The position numbers and the translations under genes were made by a program. A stretch of DNA of 34,530 bases from Bacteroidaceae bacterium (GTDB lineage: Bacteria > Bacteroidota > Bacteroidia > Bacteroidales > Bacteroidaceae), in contig JAKSIZ010000027.1 of the NCBI GenBank assembly GCA_024398515.1, positions 1 to 34,530 of the forward strand, given 5' to 3'. Shown piece by piece: positions 44 to 21,663 of the stretch; the stretch's first letter is position 1, and each line of letters begins with the position of its first letter. The notes under the pieces are model-generated. The model was given only the letters and a program-made list of their open reading frames with translations, did not search any database and was not told where the DNA came from.

Positions 44-90
44 ATCTCATTTTTTACGAACGAAGTGAGATATTTTTTATGCGAAGCATA
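44..90. repeat. Small hairpins beside branched palindrome 1
   Basis: Two simple inverted repeats lie next to the first branched palindrome. ATCTCA (44-49) pairs with TGAGAT (66-71). TATGC (78-82) pairs with GCATA (86-90) around a GAA loop. The second contains GCGAAGC, a heptamer known from physical studies to form an unusually stable single-stranded DNA mini-hairpin. T runs lie between the hairpins. The stretch 1-43 before them is AACC-rich low-complexity sequence in which I see no gene. Confidence 0.5.
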
Positions 91-96
91 TTTTTT

Positions 97-223
97 ATAT
101 GATGTATGGATAGCCACGATAGTGGTGTCTTTGTGTGGTGTGGTGGTGCAAGAACTTGTTCTTAAGCACCGACACACCACACAAAGACATGGGCTTCAGT
201 ATGAAGCACACCATACATCATAT
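97..223 (+). repeat. Branched palindromic element, copy 1
   Basis: This 127-bp non-coding element folds as a four-way junction. The outer stem is 13 bp and perfect (97-109 with 211-223). Side hairpin A is CCAC-GATA-GTGG (114-125). The inner stem is 16 bp and perfect (127-142 with 173-188) and continues through GGTGC (145-149) with GCACC (166-170). The apex is AAGAAC-TT-GTTCTT (150-163). Side hairpin B is GCTTC-AGTAT-GAAGC (193-207). T-rich tracts flank both ends. Copies 2 and 3 share the architecture and the apex decamer GAACTTGTTC but have unrelated arms. Orientation is set to the strand that reads GAACTTGTTC. The family is not one I recognise; it could act as folded single-stranded DNA or as RNA. 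Confidence 0.8.
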
Positions 224-16129: not shown

Positions 16130-18313
16130 ATGAAAAAGTTTATTTTGATTTTTGCATTGATGCTCAACGCAGTTTGGGCAAATGCGCAGATAGCGAAGAC
16201 TGACACCAAAGCTATGTCGGTAGAAACATTTATCGTTGATGACACATATCAACCGTATCTTGTTGGTGGGGAGATTGCAAATTATGATGAATCGTTTGTT
16301 CAAAGAAAAGGTCTCATAATAAGCACTTCTCAAGACAAGATGACAATTACAAATAAAACAAAATTTGTTGCAGTGTTAAATGATTCAGTGCAATACTTTA
16401 GTGATAGGGTGATAGATTGTTCTTCTTTCGAATACTCGAAAGAGCAATTCATCGTTCCAATGAAGTGGTTATGGGGAAATACGAAGTACTATGTAAAAGC
16501 ATACGCAGTGTTGAATGATGGTAGTGTCATATATGGAAATGAGGTGTCTTTTGTTACACAAAATTATAATAGATATAATACATCTGGAGCCTATGCAAAC
16601 GTATGGCATGCGTTTGATGCGACATTATTTGATTTGAAAACAGATGAAATTATCAATCCTAATACAGATGGCTTTTACTATTCAACTAATGAAAATCCAA
16701 CATCTTGCAAATTTCAAGTAGGAACATTTTCATACTTATGCTTTAAGTTTAAGACAAAATGGAATTATATAGTATGGTATAGCAATGTATGGTGGAAACA
16801 TACTTCTAAAACAGACCCTCTTACTAGGGAAGACAAAAATTTCCCGGTAATGTCATATAAAGATGGATACCTTACAATCACCCCATATACTGCTGGAGAT
16901 GACATTTATTACAGCATTGACGGCAATTACTTTTCGCCAGAATCTTTTACTCAAAAATATGATGGACCAATAAAGATAACATCGCCATGTACTGTATGTT
17001 GCTATTCTATCAATAGTGATGGTATGCCAAGTCATACGAATGCTTACCAAATTCGCAAGACAGAGAAACCAAACACTGATATCAACGAGTATAATGATAT
17101 CATTTATGTCAGAGATACTATTGTAAGATACAACGATTCTTTCCCTCTGAACATCAGGATGAAGAACTCTACAGATATCATAAGTTTCCAGTTTGACCTT
17201 GAATTGCCAAAGGGAATGAGCATTGTTTACGATGCTGAGGCTGAAGATTATGACATCAATCTTTCAACTGAACGTACGACAACGAAGCGTCATTCGTTGA
17301 GTTATCTACCACAAGAGGACGGAACAATGAGGATTGTATGTACCTCTGGCACAAATCAAAGTTTCAGCGGATACGATGGAAACATTGTCACAATCATGGT
17401 CAATGTTGATAAAGACATCAACCCTGGCGACTATGCACTTTACTTGAACAACATAGAGATGACTACGTCGGCGTTGAAATCCATCAATGTTGAGCAGTGC
17501 AAATCTACGCTTACTGTGAAGACTTATACGCTTGGCGACGTGAACAACGACGGCAATATTACCGTTACAGATGCTGCTTGCGTTGTGGCATTCATACTTG
17601 GTTCGAGCACCGACGGACTTATCCGTGAGGCAGCAGATGTGAATCAGGACGGCAATATATCTGTCACCGATGCTGCATGTGTTGTTGATATCATCCTTCA
17701 CGGTGGCGCAAGTGCAGCAAAACCAGAGCCTATGCCAAAGGCAACCGACGACACTACAGCGAACAAACTCTTCGTTGAGGACTTCAGCGCAAAGCCTGGC
17801 GACCAGGTTGTCATCCCTGTAATGATGGACAATGATGCAGAGATAACCGCGTTCCAGTTCGATATGTACCTTCCAAATGGCATTACGATAGCTGAGGAAG
17901 ATGGCGAACCGCTTATCGACTTGAGCCAAAGCCGCACCACTTACAAGAAGCATTCGCTCAGCTATCTGCAACAGGAAAACGGTGCAATGCGCATAGTATG
18001 CAACTCGGGTACGAACAAGACCTTCTCGGGCAACTCGGGCGAAGTAGTCAACGTCACGGTAAACATACCTGAGACAATGGCAGAAGGCGAGTACGAGATA
18101 AGCATCAAGGCGCAGGAGTTGACAACATCAGCCCTTCAGTCAATCAATGTTGACGAGACGAAATGTAAGTTGACAATCGAAACGCCGACAGGCATCACGT
18201 CCGTCCGCAATGCAAGTCTATCCGACGCACCAGCCTACAACCTGCAAGGCATCCGCGTAAACAGTGGCTACAAGGGCATTGTAATCAAGGAAGGCAAGAA
18301 GTTCCTGAATTAA
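16130..18313 (+). CDS. Secreted protein with dockerin between two cohesin-like modules
   Basis: A signal peptide (1-20, ending NAQ) leads a 727-aa extracellular protein. An FN3-like segment (about 55-144, YYVKAYAVLNDGSVIYGNEVSF) is followed by a chitobiase C-terminal-like module (about 240-308, IYYSIDGNYFSP). The first cohesin-like beta-sandwich is at about 325-463. A type I dockerin pair follows, with calcium loops DVNNDG (470-475) and DVNQDG (503-508), and then a second cohesin-like module (about 545-683). The two modules are clearly duplicated: both carry HSLSYL, RIVC-SGTN, FSG and TTSAL-SINV. The tail (about 700-727, YNLQGIRV to EGKKFLN) resembles Prevotella C-terminal sorting domains. 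DNA for residues 1-310 is AT-rich, unlike the rest. No catalytic domain is evident; a scaffold or binding role is an inference. Confidence 0.8.
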   Translation: MKKFILIFALMLNAVWANAQIAKTDTKAMSVETFIVDDTYQPYLVGGEIANYDESFVQRKGLIISTSQDKMTITNKTKFVAVLNDSVQYFSDRVIDCSSFEYSKEQFIVPMKWLWGNTKYYVKAYAVLNDGSVIYGNEVSFVTQNYNRYNTSGAYANVWHAFDATLFDLKTDEIINPNTDGFYYSTNENPTSCKFQVGTFSYLCFKFKTKWNYIVWYSNVWWKHTSKTDPLTREDKNFPVMSYKDGYLTITPYTAGDDIYYSIDGNYFSPESFTQKYDGPIKITSPCTVCCYSINSDGMPSHTNAYQIRKTEKPNTDINEYNDIIYVRDTIVRYNDSFPLNIRMKNSTDIISFQFDLELPKGMSIVYDAEAEDYDINLSTERTTTKRHSLSYLPQEDGTMRIVCTSGTNQSFSGYDGNIVTIMVNVDKDINPGDYALYLNNIEMTTSALKSINVEQCKSTLTVKTYTLGDVNNDGNITVTDAACVVAFILGSSTDGLIREAADVNQDGNISVTDAACVVDIILHGGASAAKPEPMPKATDDTTANKLFVEDFSAKPGDQVVIPVMMDNDAEITAFQFDMYLPNGITIAEEDGEPLIDLSQSRTTYKKHSLSYLQQENGAMRIVCNSGTNKTFSGNSGEVVNVTVNIPETMAEGEYEISIKAQELTTSALQSINVDETKCKLTIETPTGITSVRNASLSDAPAYNLQGIRVNSGYKGIVIKEGKKFLN

Positions 18314-18317
18314 GAAT

Positions 18318-18348
18318 AAGGCGAAGCACATAGGGCTTCGCCTTTTTT
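18318..18348 (+). terminator. Intrinsic terminator after the dockerin-cohesin gene
   Basis: AAGGCGAAGC (18318-18327) pairs with GCTTCGCCTT (18335-18344) and runs into six T, 5 nt after the stop codon. Confidence 0.9.
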
Positions 18349-18427
18349 CGTGTCTTTTTTTGGTGTATTCTGGGAACATTGGAATTTTACTGAGGGGACT
18401 CGGATTTAGACAAAAACAAAAAAAACA

Positions 18428-18559
18428 CCTTGGCATTGTTGCAAATGTCTCTTTCGAGCCATAGATGTTGTAGGTGGATGAAAATCCTTGTGAACAAGTT
18501 CACAGATATATTCATCCACCTACAACATCACCCTTACGGGTTCTGCAACAATTCCAAGG
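18428..18559 (-). repeat. Branched palindromic element, copy 2
   Basis: This 132-bp element has the same architecture as copies 1 and 3. Outer stem: 15 of 16 bp (18428-18443 with 18544-18559). First side hairpin: CTC-TTTC-GAG (18449-18458). Inner stem: 19 bp, perfect (18464-18482 with 18511-18529). Apex: TGTGAAC-AA-GTTCACA (18489-18504). Second side hairpin: ACCC-TTAC-GGGT (18530-18541). On the minus strand the apex reads GAACTTGTTC like the other copies, the side-hairpin loops become GTAA and GAAA, and the flanking A-rich tracts become T-rich. Minus is therefore the matching orientation. Confidence 0.8.
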
Positions 18560-18588
18560 CGAAAAACCAAAATAAAAGCTCCTTCCTG

Positions 18589-18637
18589 CTCCCCCAAAGG
18601 GGAGTGACTTGAATCCTTCATCCTCCCTTGGGGAGGA
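18589..18637. repeat. Paired GC-rich hairpins between branched elements
   Basis: CTCCCC-CAAA-GGGGAG (18589-18604) and TCCTCCC-TTG-GGGAGGA (18621-18637) are two compact hairpins that can also pair with each other imperfectly. A T run follows at 18653-18661. They sit between branched copies 2 and 3. Open frames across the region appear to be by-products of these repeats. They may be a dispersed intergenic repeat, or terminator-like for rightward transcripts. Confidence 0.55.
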
Positions 18638-18671
18638 CAGAGGGTGGCTCCTGTTTTTTTTCTGTTTATCT

Positions 18672-18803
18672 CCTTGAAGAGGATGAAAGCCTTCTGAAGG
18701 AAGGTGATGCTATGAGTGCGAGAATTTATCGGAGAACTTGTTCTCCAGGAAATTCTTGCACTCATAGCATCAGGTGCTGACAAGCAACCCATACTCTTCA
18801 AGG
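18672..18803 (+). repeat. Branched palindromic element, copy 3
   Basis: This 132-bp element again has the four-part fold. Outer stem: 13 of 14 bp (18672-18685 with 18790-18803). Side hairpin A: CCTT-CTG-AAGG (18690-18700). Inner stem: 22 of 23 bp (18705-18727 with 18750-18772), the exception being G18720 opposite T18757. Apex: GGAGAAC-TT-GTTCTCC (18731-18746). Side hairpin B: TGCT-GACA-AGCA (18775-18786). T-rich flanks lie at 18653-18668 and 18805-18820. Arms share no obvious sequence with copies 1 or 2 apart from the apex. Confidence 0.8.
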
Positions 18804-18965
18804 GGTTTTTCTTGTTTTTGTTAGATTTCAACTGATACGCATCAATACTCCCCCAGTATTTTTCCGCTAGCCGTCTTCTGTTTTTGTACAAGTTCGATGT
18901 GCACCAGTATGTTTCCGTTGAACTTTGTCATGACATGAGCGTAAGGGTTTTATGGAATGAGCCTA

Positions 18966-19050
18966 ATGTTCCGCAAAAAACTGCTACAGTTTTCGATCGA
19001 AAACTGTAGCAGTTTTGACTTGAAAACTGTAGCAGTTTTTTGCGGAGCAT
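18966..19050. repeat. Three-copy palindromic repeat (17-mer)
   Basis: AAAACTGCTACAGTTTT (18977-18993) recurs as its reverse complement at 19000-19016 and 19023-19039. Each 17-mer is itself a palindrome (AAAACTG-3nt-CAGTTTT). Copies 1 and 3 extend into a perfect 25-bp inverted repeat (18970-18994 with 19022-19046), lengthened to 28 of 29 bp at 18966 and 19050. Copy 1 can pair with copy 2 or copy 3, or each can fold alone. It ends about 80 nt before the GH115 promoter -7 element. Confidence 0.85.
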
Positions 19051-19086
19051 AAAGGTCGTTCTTGTAAGTTATTACATAAAGGTCGT
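19048..19086 (+). promoter_or_regulatory. Direct repeat upstream of the GH115 promoter
   Basis: CATAAAGGTCGT occurs at 19048-19059 and again at 19075-19086, 27 bp apart start to start. The second copy ends 21 nt before the -33 TTG. The placement and spacing suit an activator operator, but the regulator is not in the window. Confidence 0.5.
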
Positions 19087-19107
19087 GAGAAAACTTTTCA
19101 CATATTG

Positions 19108-19139
19108 TTGCAGAATATGAATTATTTTTGTTATCTTTG
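19108..19139 (+). promoter_or_regulatory. Promoter of the GH115 gene
   Basis: TTG (19108-19110), a 21-nt spacer and TATCTTTG (19132-19139) match the Bacteroidetes consensus. The leader to the start codon at 19234 would be about 90 nt. Confidence 0.65.
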
Positions 19140-19233
19140 CAACGCAAACCAGAAAATTATATAGGCTATGTGTGAGTAGATCAAGATTCCTTGAGTCTAT
19201 AAAACAGTTAGCGGATAAAGCAAATAATAAATT

Positions 19234-21663
19234 ATGAAAACATTCTTTTTTGCATTATTGTGCCTTGTGACTGCGTCGGTGCAGGGGGCGGAAAGGTTTA
19301 TAGAGTTCGATAAGAACGAAGGTTTTATCAATCTTACACAGACGAAAGGCAAGATTCGTGTTGACAAAAACGACTTCAAGGGTGTGCATATTGCCATCGC
19401 AAACCTTAGAAACGACCTCACTGCAGTGTGCGGAACCGACCGTGTGCCCGTTGTCATCGGCAGCATTGAACGCAGCAAACTCATACCTAAAAGCATCAAA
19501 AGTCAACTCACAGGCAAGTGTGAACAGTATATAATAACCTCGACCGACCGTGGCGAACTGCTCATCGCTGGCTCCGATATGCGTGGAACCATCTATGGCA
19601 TTTACGAACTTTCGCGGCAGATAGGCGTCTCGCCGTGGTATTGGTGGGCTGATGTGCCAGTGGCAAAACACTCGCAACTCTACTTCAAACGCGGCACATA
19701 CACCGACGGAGAACCTGCCGTGAGGTATCGTGGACTGTTTCTCAACGACGAAGCACCGTGTCTTACGTCGTGGGTGAAGAATTATTTTGGCACAGAATAT
19801 GGCGGACATGAGTTCTATGCAAAGGTCTTCGAACTCCTTCTGCGCCTTAAAGCCAACTTCCTCTGGCCTGCAATGTGGGGATGGAGTTTCTATGCCGACG
19901 ATGCACAGAACAGTCAAACTGCCAACGACATGGGCATCATCATGGGCACTTCACACCACGAGCCAATGGCACGAAACCATCAGGAATATGCCCGCAACCG
20001 TGCAAAGTGGGGCGCATGGGACTACGAGACAAACAAGGAAGGCCTTGACCTCTTCTTCCGCGAAGGCATGGAAAGAGCCAAGAATACCGAGGATCTTATC
20101 ACCATTGGCATGCGTGGCGACGGAGATACATCGATGGGCGGCAAGGAAGGACACGACGATGAAGCGGTGTCACAGGATGAACGAGTAATGGGAATACTGA
20201 AGAAGGTGATTGACAATCAGCGCGAAATCATCGCCGATGTCACTGGTCGTCCGGCAGAAGAACGCCCACAGGTATGGGCTTTATACAAGGAAGTGCAGAA
20301 GTATTACGACAAAGGACTGCGAGTACCAGACGATGTAACGATACTTCTTTCGGACGATAACTGGGGCGACATACGTAGTCTGCCGACACTTGAAGAACAA
20401 CGACGCAAGGGAGGGTGGGGCATTTACTACCACGTTGACTATGTAGGTGCGCCACGAAACTCGAAGTGGCTCAACATCACACCGTTTGCAAATATGTGGG
20501 AACAACTTCAACTCACCTATTCTTACGGCGTAAAAAAGCTTTGGGTGCTGAATGTAGGCGACCTCAAACCTATGGAATATCCTATCAGCATGTTCCTCGA
20601 CATGGCGTGGAATCCGAAGGCTTACGACGAGACAAACCTCATTTCTCATGCCGAAGAATGGTGTGCAGAGCAGTTTGGAAAGAACAATGCAAAGGAGGCT
20701 GCACGTATCCTGAACCTTTACACATGGTATAATGGGCGAGTTACACCCGAGATGCTTGATGCCAGAACATACGATGTTGCCTCGGGCGAATGGAAGTTTG
20801 TACGCGATGAATACGCCCGACTTGCCGAGGAAACAAAGCGACAGTATGCTGCGATAGACGATAATTTGAAGGATGCTTACTATCAAATCCTGTATTATCC
20901 AGTGGTGGCAATGGCAAATCTTTACGATATGTATTACTCCGCAGCAACAGGCGACGAGGCGCAGATTGCCGTAGATTTTCAGTACGACAAGCAACTTTCC
21001 GACCATTACAACCGCACGATGGCAGGTGGAAAATGGAACGGAATGATGACTCAGAAGCATATAGGTTATCGCACTTGGAACGACAATTTCCCTGAAGATA
21101 TAGCTCCAAGAGCGTTGTCTAAACGCACGGAAGAAGTGACAGAACTGTCGAAGGCAGTTATCATCGAAGCAGAAAACTATGCAAAAGCAACGACACCTGT
21201 GGCTGGAACACGCTGGACAACGATACCTTATTTAGGAAGAACGCGGTCGGGAGTGGCGTTGATGCCATACACTTTAAGCCCCGAAGGAGCAACTCTGACC
21301 TACGACATTCCGTTGCCGGAAGGCATGGATACGGCGATGAAAGAGGTCAAGGTGTATGTCATAACCAAGTCAAACCTTGCTTTCAAGAACAAGAACGGAC
21401 ATTGTTTCCGCATCGCATTTAATGGTGCAGAGGCAAAAATTGTGAATACAAATAGGGATTTGAATGAGGATCATCCGTATGATAAACTCTATCCAACCGT
21501 TGCCCGACGAATAATAGAAAATAAGGTAACGCTTGCTTTACCAACGGATGTGAAAGGCAATTTGCAACTGGAAATTGCCCCATTAGACCCAGGAATAGTG
21601 TTTGAAAAGGTCATAGTAGATTTTGGCAACTATCGCCCAACCTATCTTTATGGCATAAAATAA
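19234..21663 (+). CDS. GH115 family alpha-glucuronidase
   Basis: GH115 enzymes remove (4-O-methyl-)glucuronic acid side chains from glucuronoxylan, including internal residues. The 809-aa protein has a signal peptide (about 1-19, ending VQGAE) and no lipobox, so it is periplasmic or secreted. The N-terminal domain contains LLIAGSDMRGTIYGIYELS and IGVSPWYWWADVPV, hallmark segments of the family. The catalytic barrel shows RYRGLFLNDEAP, LKANFLWPAMWGWSF and LLSDDNWGDIRSLP. A C-terminal beta-rich domain follows from about residue 650. The length is near the family norm. It is a single-gene unit with its own promoter, converging on the C10 peptidase. No xylanase or xylosidase partner is in the window. 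Confidence 0.93.
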   Translation: MKTFFFALLCLVTASVQGAERFIEFDKNEGFINLTQTKGKIRVDKNDFKGVHIAIANLRNDLTAVCGTDRVPVVIGSIERSKLIPKSIKSQLTGKCEQYIITSTDRGELLIAGSDMRGTIYGIYELSRQIGVSPWYWWADVPVAKHSQLYFKRGTYTDGEPAVRYRGLFLNDEAPCLTSWVKNYFGTEYGGHEFYAKVFELLLRLKANFLWPAMWGWSFYADDAQNSQTANDMGIIMGTSHHEPMARNHQEYARNRAKWGAWDYETNKEGLDLFFREGMERAKNTEDLITIGMRGDGDTSMGGKEGHDDEAVSQDERVMGILKKVIDNQREIIADVTGRPAEERPQVWALYKEVQKYYDKGLRVPDDVTILLSDDNWGDIRSLPTLEEQRRKGGWGIYYHVDYVGAPRNSKWLNITPFANMWEQLQLTYSYGVKKLWVLNVGDLKPMEYPISMFLDMAWNPKAYDETNLISHAEEWCAEQFGKNNAKEAARILNLYTWYNGRVTPEMLDARTYDVASGEWKFVRDEYARLAEETKRQYAAIDDNLKDAYYQILYYPVVAMANLYDMYYSAATGDEAQIAVDFQYDKQLSDHYNRTMAGGKWNGMMTQKHIGYRTWNDNFPEDIAPRALSKRTEEVTELSKAVIIEAENYAKATTPVAGTRWTTIPYLGRTRSGVALMPYTLSPEGATLTYDIPLPEGMDTAMKEVKVYVITKSNLAFKNKNGHCFRIAFNGAEAKIVNTNRDLNEDHPYDKLYPTVARRIIENKVTLALPTDVKGNLQLEIAPLDPGIVFEKVIVDFGNYRPTYLYGIK

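Follow-up and report, generated by a model that had tools for sequence, protein, structure and literature searches.

The closest described counterparts of the repeats studied here are REPIN/BIME doublets, which two papers describe as dispersed together with a proposed enzyme, the REP-associated tyrosine transposase (RAYT) (PMC3116915; PMC3733652). REPINs resemble the palindromes analyzed in this study in forming opposite-facing doublets (17 of our 24 neighbors at most 700 nt apart are arranged minus-plus) and in being dispersed, intergenic, and divided into species-specific families, with many gene-less copies beside few genes for the proposed enzyme (PMC3116915; PMC3733652). Unlike REPs, which are 20–40 bp long and tagged with GTAG, the units here are 119–137 nt long and branched, and the ends of families A, B, and C carry no GTAG tag as read; unlike REPINs, which are associated with a Y1/HUH transposase, their likely partner gene encodes a predicted PD-(D/E)XK nuclease, GxxExxY.

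The repeats also resemble MITEs, including those of Porphyromonas gingivalis (PMC5771137), in being short, non-coding, repeated, and disruptive to short-read assemblies; different from these, their ends are kept in fold more than in sequence and are accompanied by no known transposase family. At least 13 contigs of the source genome terminate within a copy. Integron attC sites, which are read as folded single-stranded DNA, are conserved in fold more than in sequence and bear RYYYAAC and GTTRRRY boxes at their outer ends. Conservation of fold above sequence is shared with our elements; unlike attC sites, the outer ends of families A, B, and C have no such boxes as read, and the units form inverted pairs rather than cassette arrays.

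The window denotes the whole 34,530-nucleotide stretch analyzed here (contig JAKSIZ010000027.1 of a Bacteroidaceae genome, GCA_024398515.1). We propose, with a probability of roughly 0.57, that its branched palindromes represent the folded termini of small, non-autonomous copies of a mobile element linked to GxxExxY genes.

Branched palindromes and their families

An initial annotation made from the sequence alone had reported three intergenic elements of the same branched topology in the window. All three were confirmed, with the fold as described, at 97–223 (plus strand), 18428–18559 (minus strand), and 18672–18803 (plus strand). Folded with RNA energies on both strands, they have z-scores of −10.2 to −11.5 (−10.96 for 97–223), and 0 of 200 shuffles matched the native fold in each of the six folds (three elements, two strands). 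The annotation had also likened the order of the arms to a tRNA cloverleaf while noting the absence of tRNA motifs; ARAGORN identifies 0 tRNA genes in the window, in agreement with that absence, and the likeness of order has no bearing on the elements.

The three elements share an apical decamer, GAACTTGTTC, located at 152–161, at 18492–18501 on the minus strand, and at 18734–18743, which has 81 matches in the 2.65-Mb source genome vs. 15 for a reversed control pattern. By pattern, 48 of these matches were sorted into six full-length families (A, 21; D, 13; F, 5; E, 4; B, 3; and C, 2), and the 33 unsorted ones were read as 20 incomplete or pattern-missed copies and 13 stretches of ordinary sequence, two of which fall in the window (31426 and 33304). 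The decamer-bearing copies number 68. A topology scan of 167 kb around the copies gave 46 matches, a few of them coding-like, and revealed a seventh family, G, and an arm covariance model revealed an eighth, H, so that at least eight sequence families of branched palindromes are present. The elements at 97–223, 18428–18559, and 18672–18803 belong to families A, B, and C, respectively, each of which has additional copies in the genome, and arms are therefore related within a family. Accordingly, the annotated view that the arms are unrelated between copies fails within a family, where copies are close relatives. In one family C copy (G000:C3:4224-4305), the apical hairpin is seemingly inverted relative to other copies.

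Composites of opposite-facing palindromes

The repeat unit is a pair of palindromes, not a single palindrome. Besides the 17 minus-plus arrangements, the 24 neighbors at most 700 nt apart include three plus-minus, three minus-minus, and one plus-plus. All 17 minus-plus neighbors are heterotypic, joining matched different families ({A,F}+{D,G} in 10, B+C in four, and E+H in three), with 34 of 82 catalogue entries assigned by hand. The chance of a matched pair under random partners is 0.279, and the random-partner calculation gave 5.4e-4 with 11 {A,F}+{D,G} pairs and about 1e-3 with the recounted 10.

One such composite (approximately 18410–18821, outer limits tentative) is bounded by the window elements starting at 18428 and 18672 and reads ACAAAAAC (18410–18417), B, a short non-coding cargo of 112 nt (18560–18671), C, and GTTTTTGT (18814–18821). 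Composites are about 400 bp in size and contain, between their two halves, small hairpins separated by A/T runs, plus variable cargo. A hairpin/T-run string at 50–78 (plus strand), beside the family A element, belongs to another composite, the left half of which lies beyond the contig start. The B+C layout recurs on contigs C50, C1, and C59 of the source genome and in genome G044; C57 and C9 hold C without B, at the position where B lies between A-rich direct repeats in the remaining copies (by reading). Paired end sequences, ACAAAAAC/GTTTTTGT and AACAACAAT/ATTGTTGTT, were seen, with conservation extending beyond both, and the composite ends examined for target-site duplications gave no consistent result. 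Upstream of the window composite, 16130–18313 encodes a protein that matches dockerin as well as cohesin domains; this gene is itself upstream of a GH115 gene (19234–21663).

Occurrence in other genomes

The string at 50–78, searched with up to three mismatches, has 34 matches in the source genome and 0 in 148 other genomes; its pattern gave none in a set of genome contigs from which the source genome was possibly excluded. No match was found in plasmids searched with window positions 18428–18803, in phages searched with 90–240, or in viral contigs searched with the family A tail. Across 100 genomes, the family A model matched the source genome and a single site in G004, a CTCCCC-type repeat within an apparent gene that we took as chance-like. 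The family of G044 was found in one genome among 129. GAACTTGTTC was rejected as a genus-wide mark, its matches in six sampled relatives looking coding.

The inner arm is more widely distributed. An arm covariance model, R2, matched eight of 149 genomes at E ≤ 0.01 (source genome, 32; G044, 9; G040, 2; G111, 2; G049, G050, G115, and G004, one each; both strands of one site are counted). When the matched loci were folded, the topology scan found the layout at both G040 loci and at G044 C13, and inspection by eye showed it at the second G044 locus and in G049 and G111; the matches in G115 and G004 look like chance. The match in G050 lies approximately 105 bp from a GxxExxY gene. The covariance-model search recommended by the initial annotation has thus found the class in the source genome and, among other species of the genus, in G044, G040, G111, G049, and G050. 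The annotation's statement that no named family has this architecture agrees with Rfam, in which 0 families reached the gathering score in the window and none of 36 matches did so among nine loci searched at E up to 5. Opposite-facing, near-threshold matches to Acido-Lenti-1 RNA lie beside an R2 palindrome of G111 (L199:1637-1681, minus, and 1778-1822, plus; 36.8 and 26.2 bits, gathering score 37).

GxxExxY genes at the palindromes

A gene between palindromes E and H on contig C12 encodes a GxxExxY protein (TIGR04256, E 1e-39; PF13366, E 2e-36). The second above-cut-off GxxExxY gene of the source genome, on C73, is located between an A/F-type hairpin string and an F-like palindrome (R2, E 0.0026), on a contig that ends before the left palindrome. 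Both such genes (2/2) therefore sit in or against composites; two further GxxExxY matches are below the cut-off and within longer ORFs. Six E/H composites were identified, one with the gene and five without. As with MITEs, non-coding copies thus share the genome with a relative that apparently carries the gene, both for E/H and for the A/F-type string at C73.

Based on its family match and conserved catalytic residues, GxxExxY is a predicted PD-(D/E)XK nuclease with E, D, ExK, and QxxxY signatures: E34, D74, K86, Q98, and Y102 are invariant among 30 rows, and E84 is present in at least 90%. No solved structure searched was significantly related (best E 0.43); non-significant matches to T7 endonuclease I (E about 0.5) and, in one GxxExxY protein out of four, a weak similarity to a Cas4b profile (E 8e-4) are leads only. 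In the open-access literature searched, we found no stated role in mobility for GxxExxY or PF13366; one paper has a GxxExxY annotation near a reverse transcriptase (PMC8934634).

R2 matches adjoin GxxExxY genes in G044, G050, and G001, and the gene on G044 C29 has a composite on each side. R2 marks only five distinct GxxExxY loci and 0 of 24 sampled control stretches (16 of 40 sampled were left out, 10 from G044 and six short); across 80 GxxExxY loci of named genomes it gave one match, a duplicate of G050.

Many more GxxExxY genes are bracketed by repeats, as seen when 450-nt flanks on both sides of each gene were compared. Among relatives (46 loci: the 30 best matches from the genus and order and 16 from multi-copy genus genomes; 45 usable), a flank repeat was shared in 36 of 45 loci (15 direct and 21 inverted), vs. 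3 of 133 ORFs of 100–250 aa and 4 of 61 isolated ORFs, both control sets being drawn from six same-genus genomes. In the named genomes (80 loci, 76 usable), a flank repeat was present at 59 of 76 GxxExxY genes vs. 8 of 45 other ORFs taken from these loci. Genes without a flank repeat number 9 of 45 and 17 of 76 in these two sets, which were ranked by match rather than drawn at random and which overlap (L335 is L216, and L271 is apparently L217). The ends vary in kind: among 12 of the 80 loci viewed, short motifs, for example CACGAATTA or CACAGATT, form foldbacks in several taxa, and branched palindromes lie on both sides of the gene in L332 (a Prevotella MAG). Flanking hairpins show only a weak increase in strength (z ≤ −8 in 10/90 vs. 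6/160; z ≤ −6 in 11/90 vs. 15/160), and the strict topology scan was not enriched near GxxExxY genes (four matches in 122 kb near, all coding-looking; 10 in 385 kb far); both results count against the GxxExxY-linked reading.

The four positives among isolated controls include an IS200/IS605-like transposase gene within a 113-nt inverted repeat of 74% identity (L176:10839-11324, G016), an accidental positive control, and a gene for a four-helix-bundle protein (TIGR02436) bracketed, as GxxExxY genes are, by a 58-nt inverted repeat of 88% identity (L164:1403-1780, G058), perhaps another repeat-linked family; the test therefore also detects known mobile genes.

It is unlikely, in our estimate, that the composites, as mobile or host repeats, depend on a different enzyme and that GxxExxY is a passenger or a homing-type nuclease gene invading them. 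This explanation would account for the majority of composites being gene-less (16 of the 17 minus-plus composites, a count that weighs against the GxxExxY-linked reading), for the palindromes in G040 without a GxxExxY match (genome 80% complete), which likewise counts against that reading, and for the genes of G044 C29 and G001, which lie between two complete units and not inside one. In G028, the palindrome occurs solely beside its GxxExxY gene, and 100 genomes yielded no gene-less copy, a further point against the GxxExxY-linked reading. The other-enzyme explanation fits poorly, however, with the C12 and C73 genes, which occupy the cargo position of a composite, and with the bracketing of GxxExxY genes across many taxa. 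RAYT as the agent is not supported: the genome has a single PF01797 (Y1_Tnp) match, a broken fragment covering 68 of 121 positions with a stop (L114; G000:C18:22396-22599), beside unrelated REP-like GCCCTGAAAGGGC/CCCAGGGC repeats. These repeats also occur between composites elsewhere in the genome. A tblastn search of 16 short composites, including the window cargo, identified no GxxExxY remnant (best E 0.57).

Nature of the folded strand

Under DNA energies, 44 of 48 copies fold more stably on the decamer strand than on its complement, and under RNA energies 42 of 48 do; the energies therefore do not decide between DNA and RNA. We consider it improbable that the palindromes act as structured RNAs such as bidirectional terminators or RNA stabilizers, which the T-runs after hairpins and the RNA stability of the decamer strand would fit. 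Against such a role, the islands with both neighbors called (n = 18, crude ORF calling) comprise 13 tandem, four head-to-head, and only one tail-to-tail arrangement, and the gene upstream of the window composite has its own terminator-like site at 18318–18344. A consensus terminator scan of 18314–19233 found none at the palindromes and one elsewhere (0.7 expected by chance), no Rfam match reached the gathering score, and the dispersal and opposite-facing pairs look mobile. DNA rather than RNA is tentatively favored as the form of the folded strand.

Covariation and a fixed mismatch loop

The annotated claim that complementarity is kept while sequence changes was borne out above both shuffled and slid controls. 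The family A alignment comprises 21 rows, 20 of them distinct; pairing holds in 98.0% of its cells, compared with 24–53% for structures slid out of register. Double changes affect 16 of 28 inner-helix pairs and none outside that helix, with 63 doubly changed cells vs. 19.7 in shuffles. The inner helix has diverged by 0.210, compared with 0.114 for unpaired columns and 0.006 for the outer and side stems. All 21 copies have C(GNYA)G as their left loop, which fits a class of stable DNA loops.

Class I arms, aligned without structure in 14 rows from two species (families B, C, F, and G of the source genome and P2 of G044), include the inner arms of the window elements B (18464–18529, minus strand; R2, 85.5 bits) and C (18706–18771, plus strand; 85.3 bits). 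Across these five families, 27 of 28 pairs are doubly changed, with 119 doubly changed cells vs. 40.4 shuffled and 92.5% pairing vs. 62.4%; the pair-type count, reached by 37 of 500 shuffles, is the weakest measure. Inner arms are 63–67 nt long, two over-long pattern matches (G and one A row) having been corrected by hand to 64 and 66.

Within this varying helix lies a 3 × 3 mismatch loop, formed in B by ATC (18505–18507) and AGG (18486–18488) on the minus strand and in C by ATC (18728–18730) and AGG (18747–18749) on the plus strand. C25, A42, G43, and G44 are invariant in the 14 rows, position 23, facing G44, is A or G, and the middle is T·G in 13 of 14 rows, where a wobble is possible. A script for NTC-6-loop-6-AGR, run over 15 class I rows, found the motif with at least five of six pairs in 12 (11 distinct, one G001 locus having been entered twice) and missed G040 b, G049, and G111 C39, where a variant is visible by eye; it found none in families A, D, and E.

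That template-switch self-correction during replication keeps the arms alike without selection is very improbable: the changed pair types of family A (12 double transversions, eight double transitions, and eight one-sided) and the seemingly inverted apex of the C3 copy (by reading) would accord with it, but such a neutral process does not predict the fixed ATC/AGG loop, the outer two positions of which stay unpaired in 14 of 14 rows despite the changing helix, nor does it sit well with nearly unchanged outer and side stems beside a diverged inner helix, or with an arm length that stays at 63–67 nt. Selection on the palindrome structure is well supported.

Proposed mechanism and implications

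The initial annotation had suggested a selected structure, either a DNA substrate for a nuclease, transposase, or recombinase or a structured RNA; of these, DNA is favored, and GxxExxY is a likely nuclease partner. In the GxxExxY-linked reading, a full-length element would consist of a GxxExxY gene (TIGR04256/PF13366) between two opposite-facing ends, each of which would fold into a branched form as single-stranded DNA or as an extruded cruciform. Each end would comprise a family-specific outer stem and side hairpins around an inner arm of about 63–67 nt, one class of which would present a mismatched NTC/AGR loop beneath a 6-bp hairpin with a CTTG-type cap. We infer that the GxxExxY nuclease reads this fold and cuts there, upon which ends and cargo would be copied or moved, and that gene-less copies may be served in trans, as has been proposed for REPINs and their RAYTs. 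By this analogy, the best reading is that the window elements would work like REPINs with a RAYT, with another enzyme in its place.

More tentatively, and with somewhat less than even confidence, GxxExxY proteins might be the mobilizing enzymes of a widespread, unrecognized class of mobile DNA, present in several phyla besides Bacteroidota, in which the nuclease would act on folded single-stranded or cruciform ends, the end families change fast, and gene-less copies form populations.

Linking GxxExxY to repeat ends gives the family a testable role, and the covarying arms with their fixed mismatch loop offer a clear substrate for a first assay. The link would account for many intergenic palindromes and assembly breaks and, if true, a PD-(D/E)XK enzyme would join the factors that mobilize DNA through recognition of its folded form.
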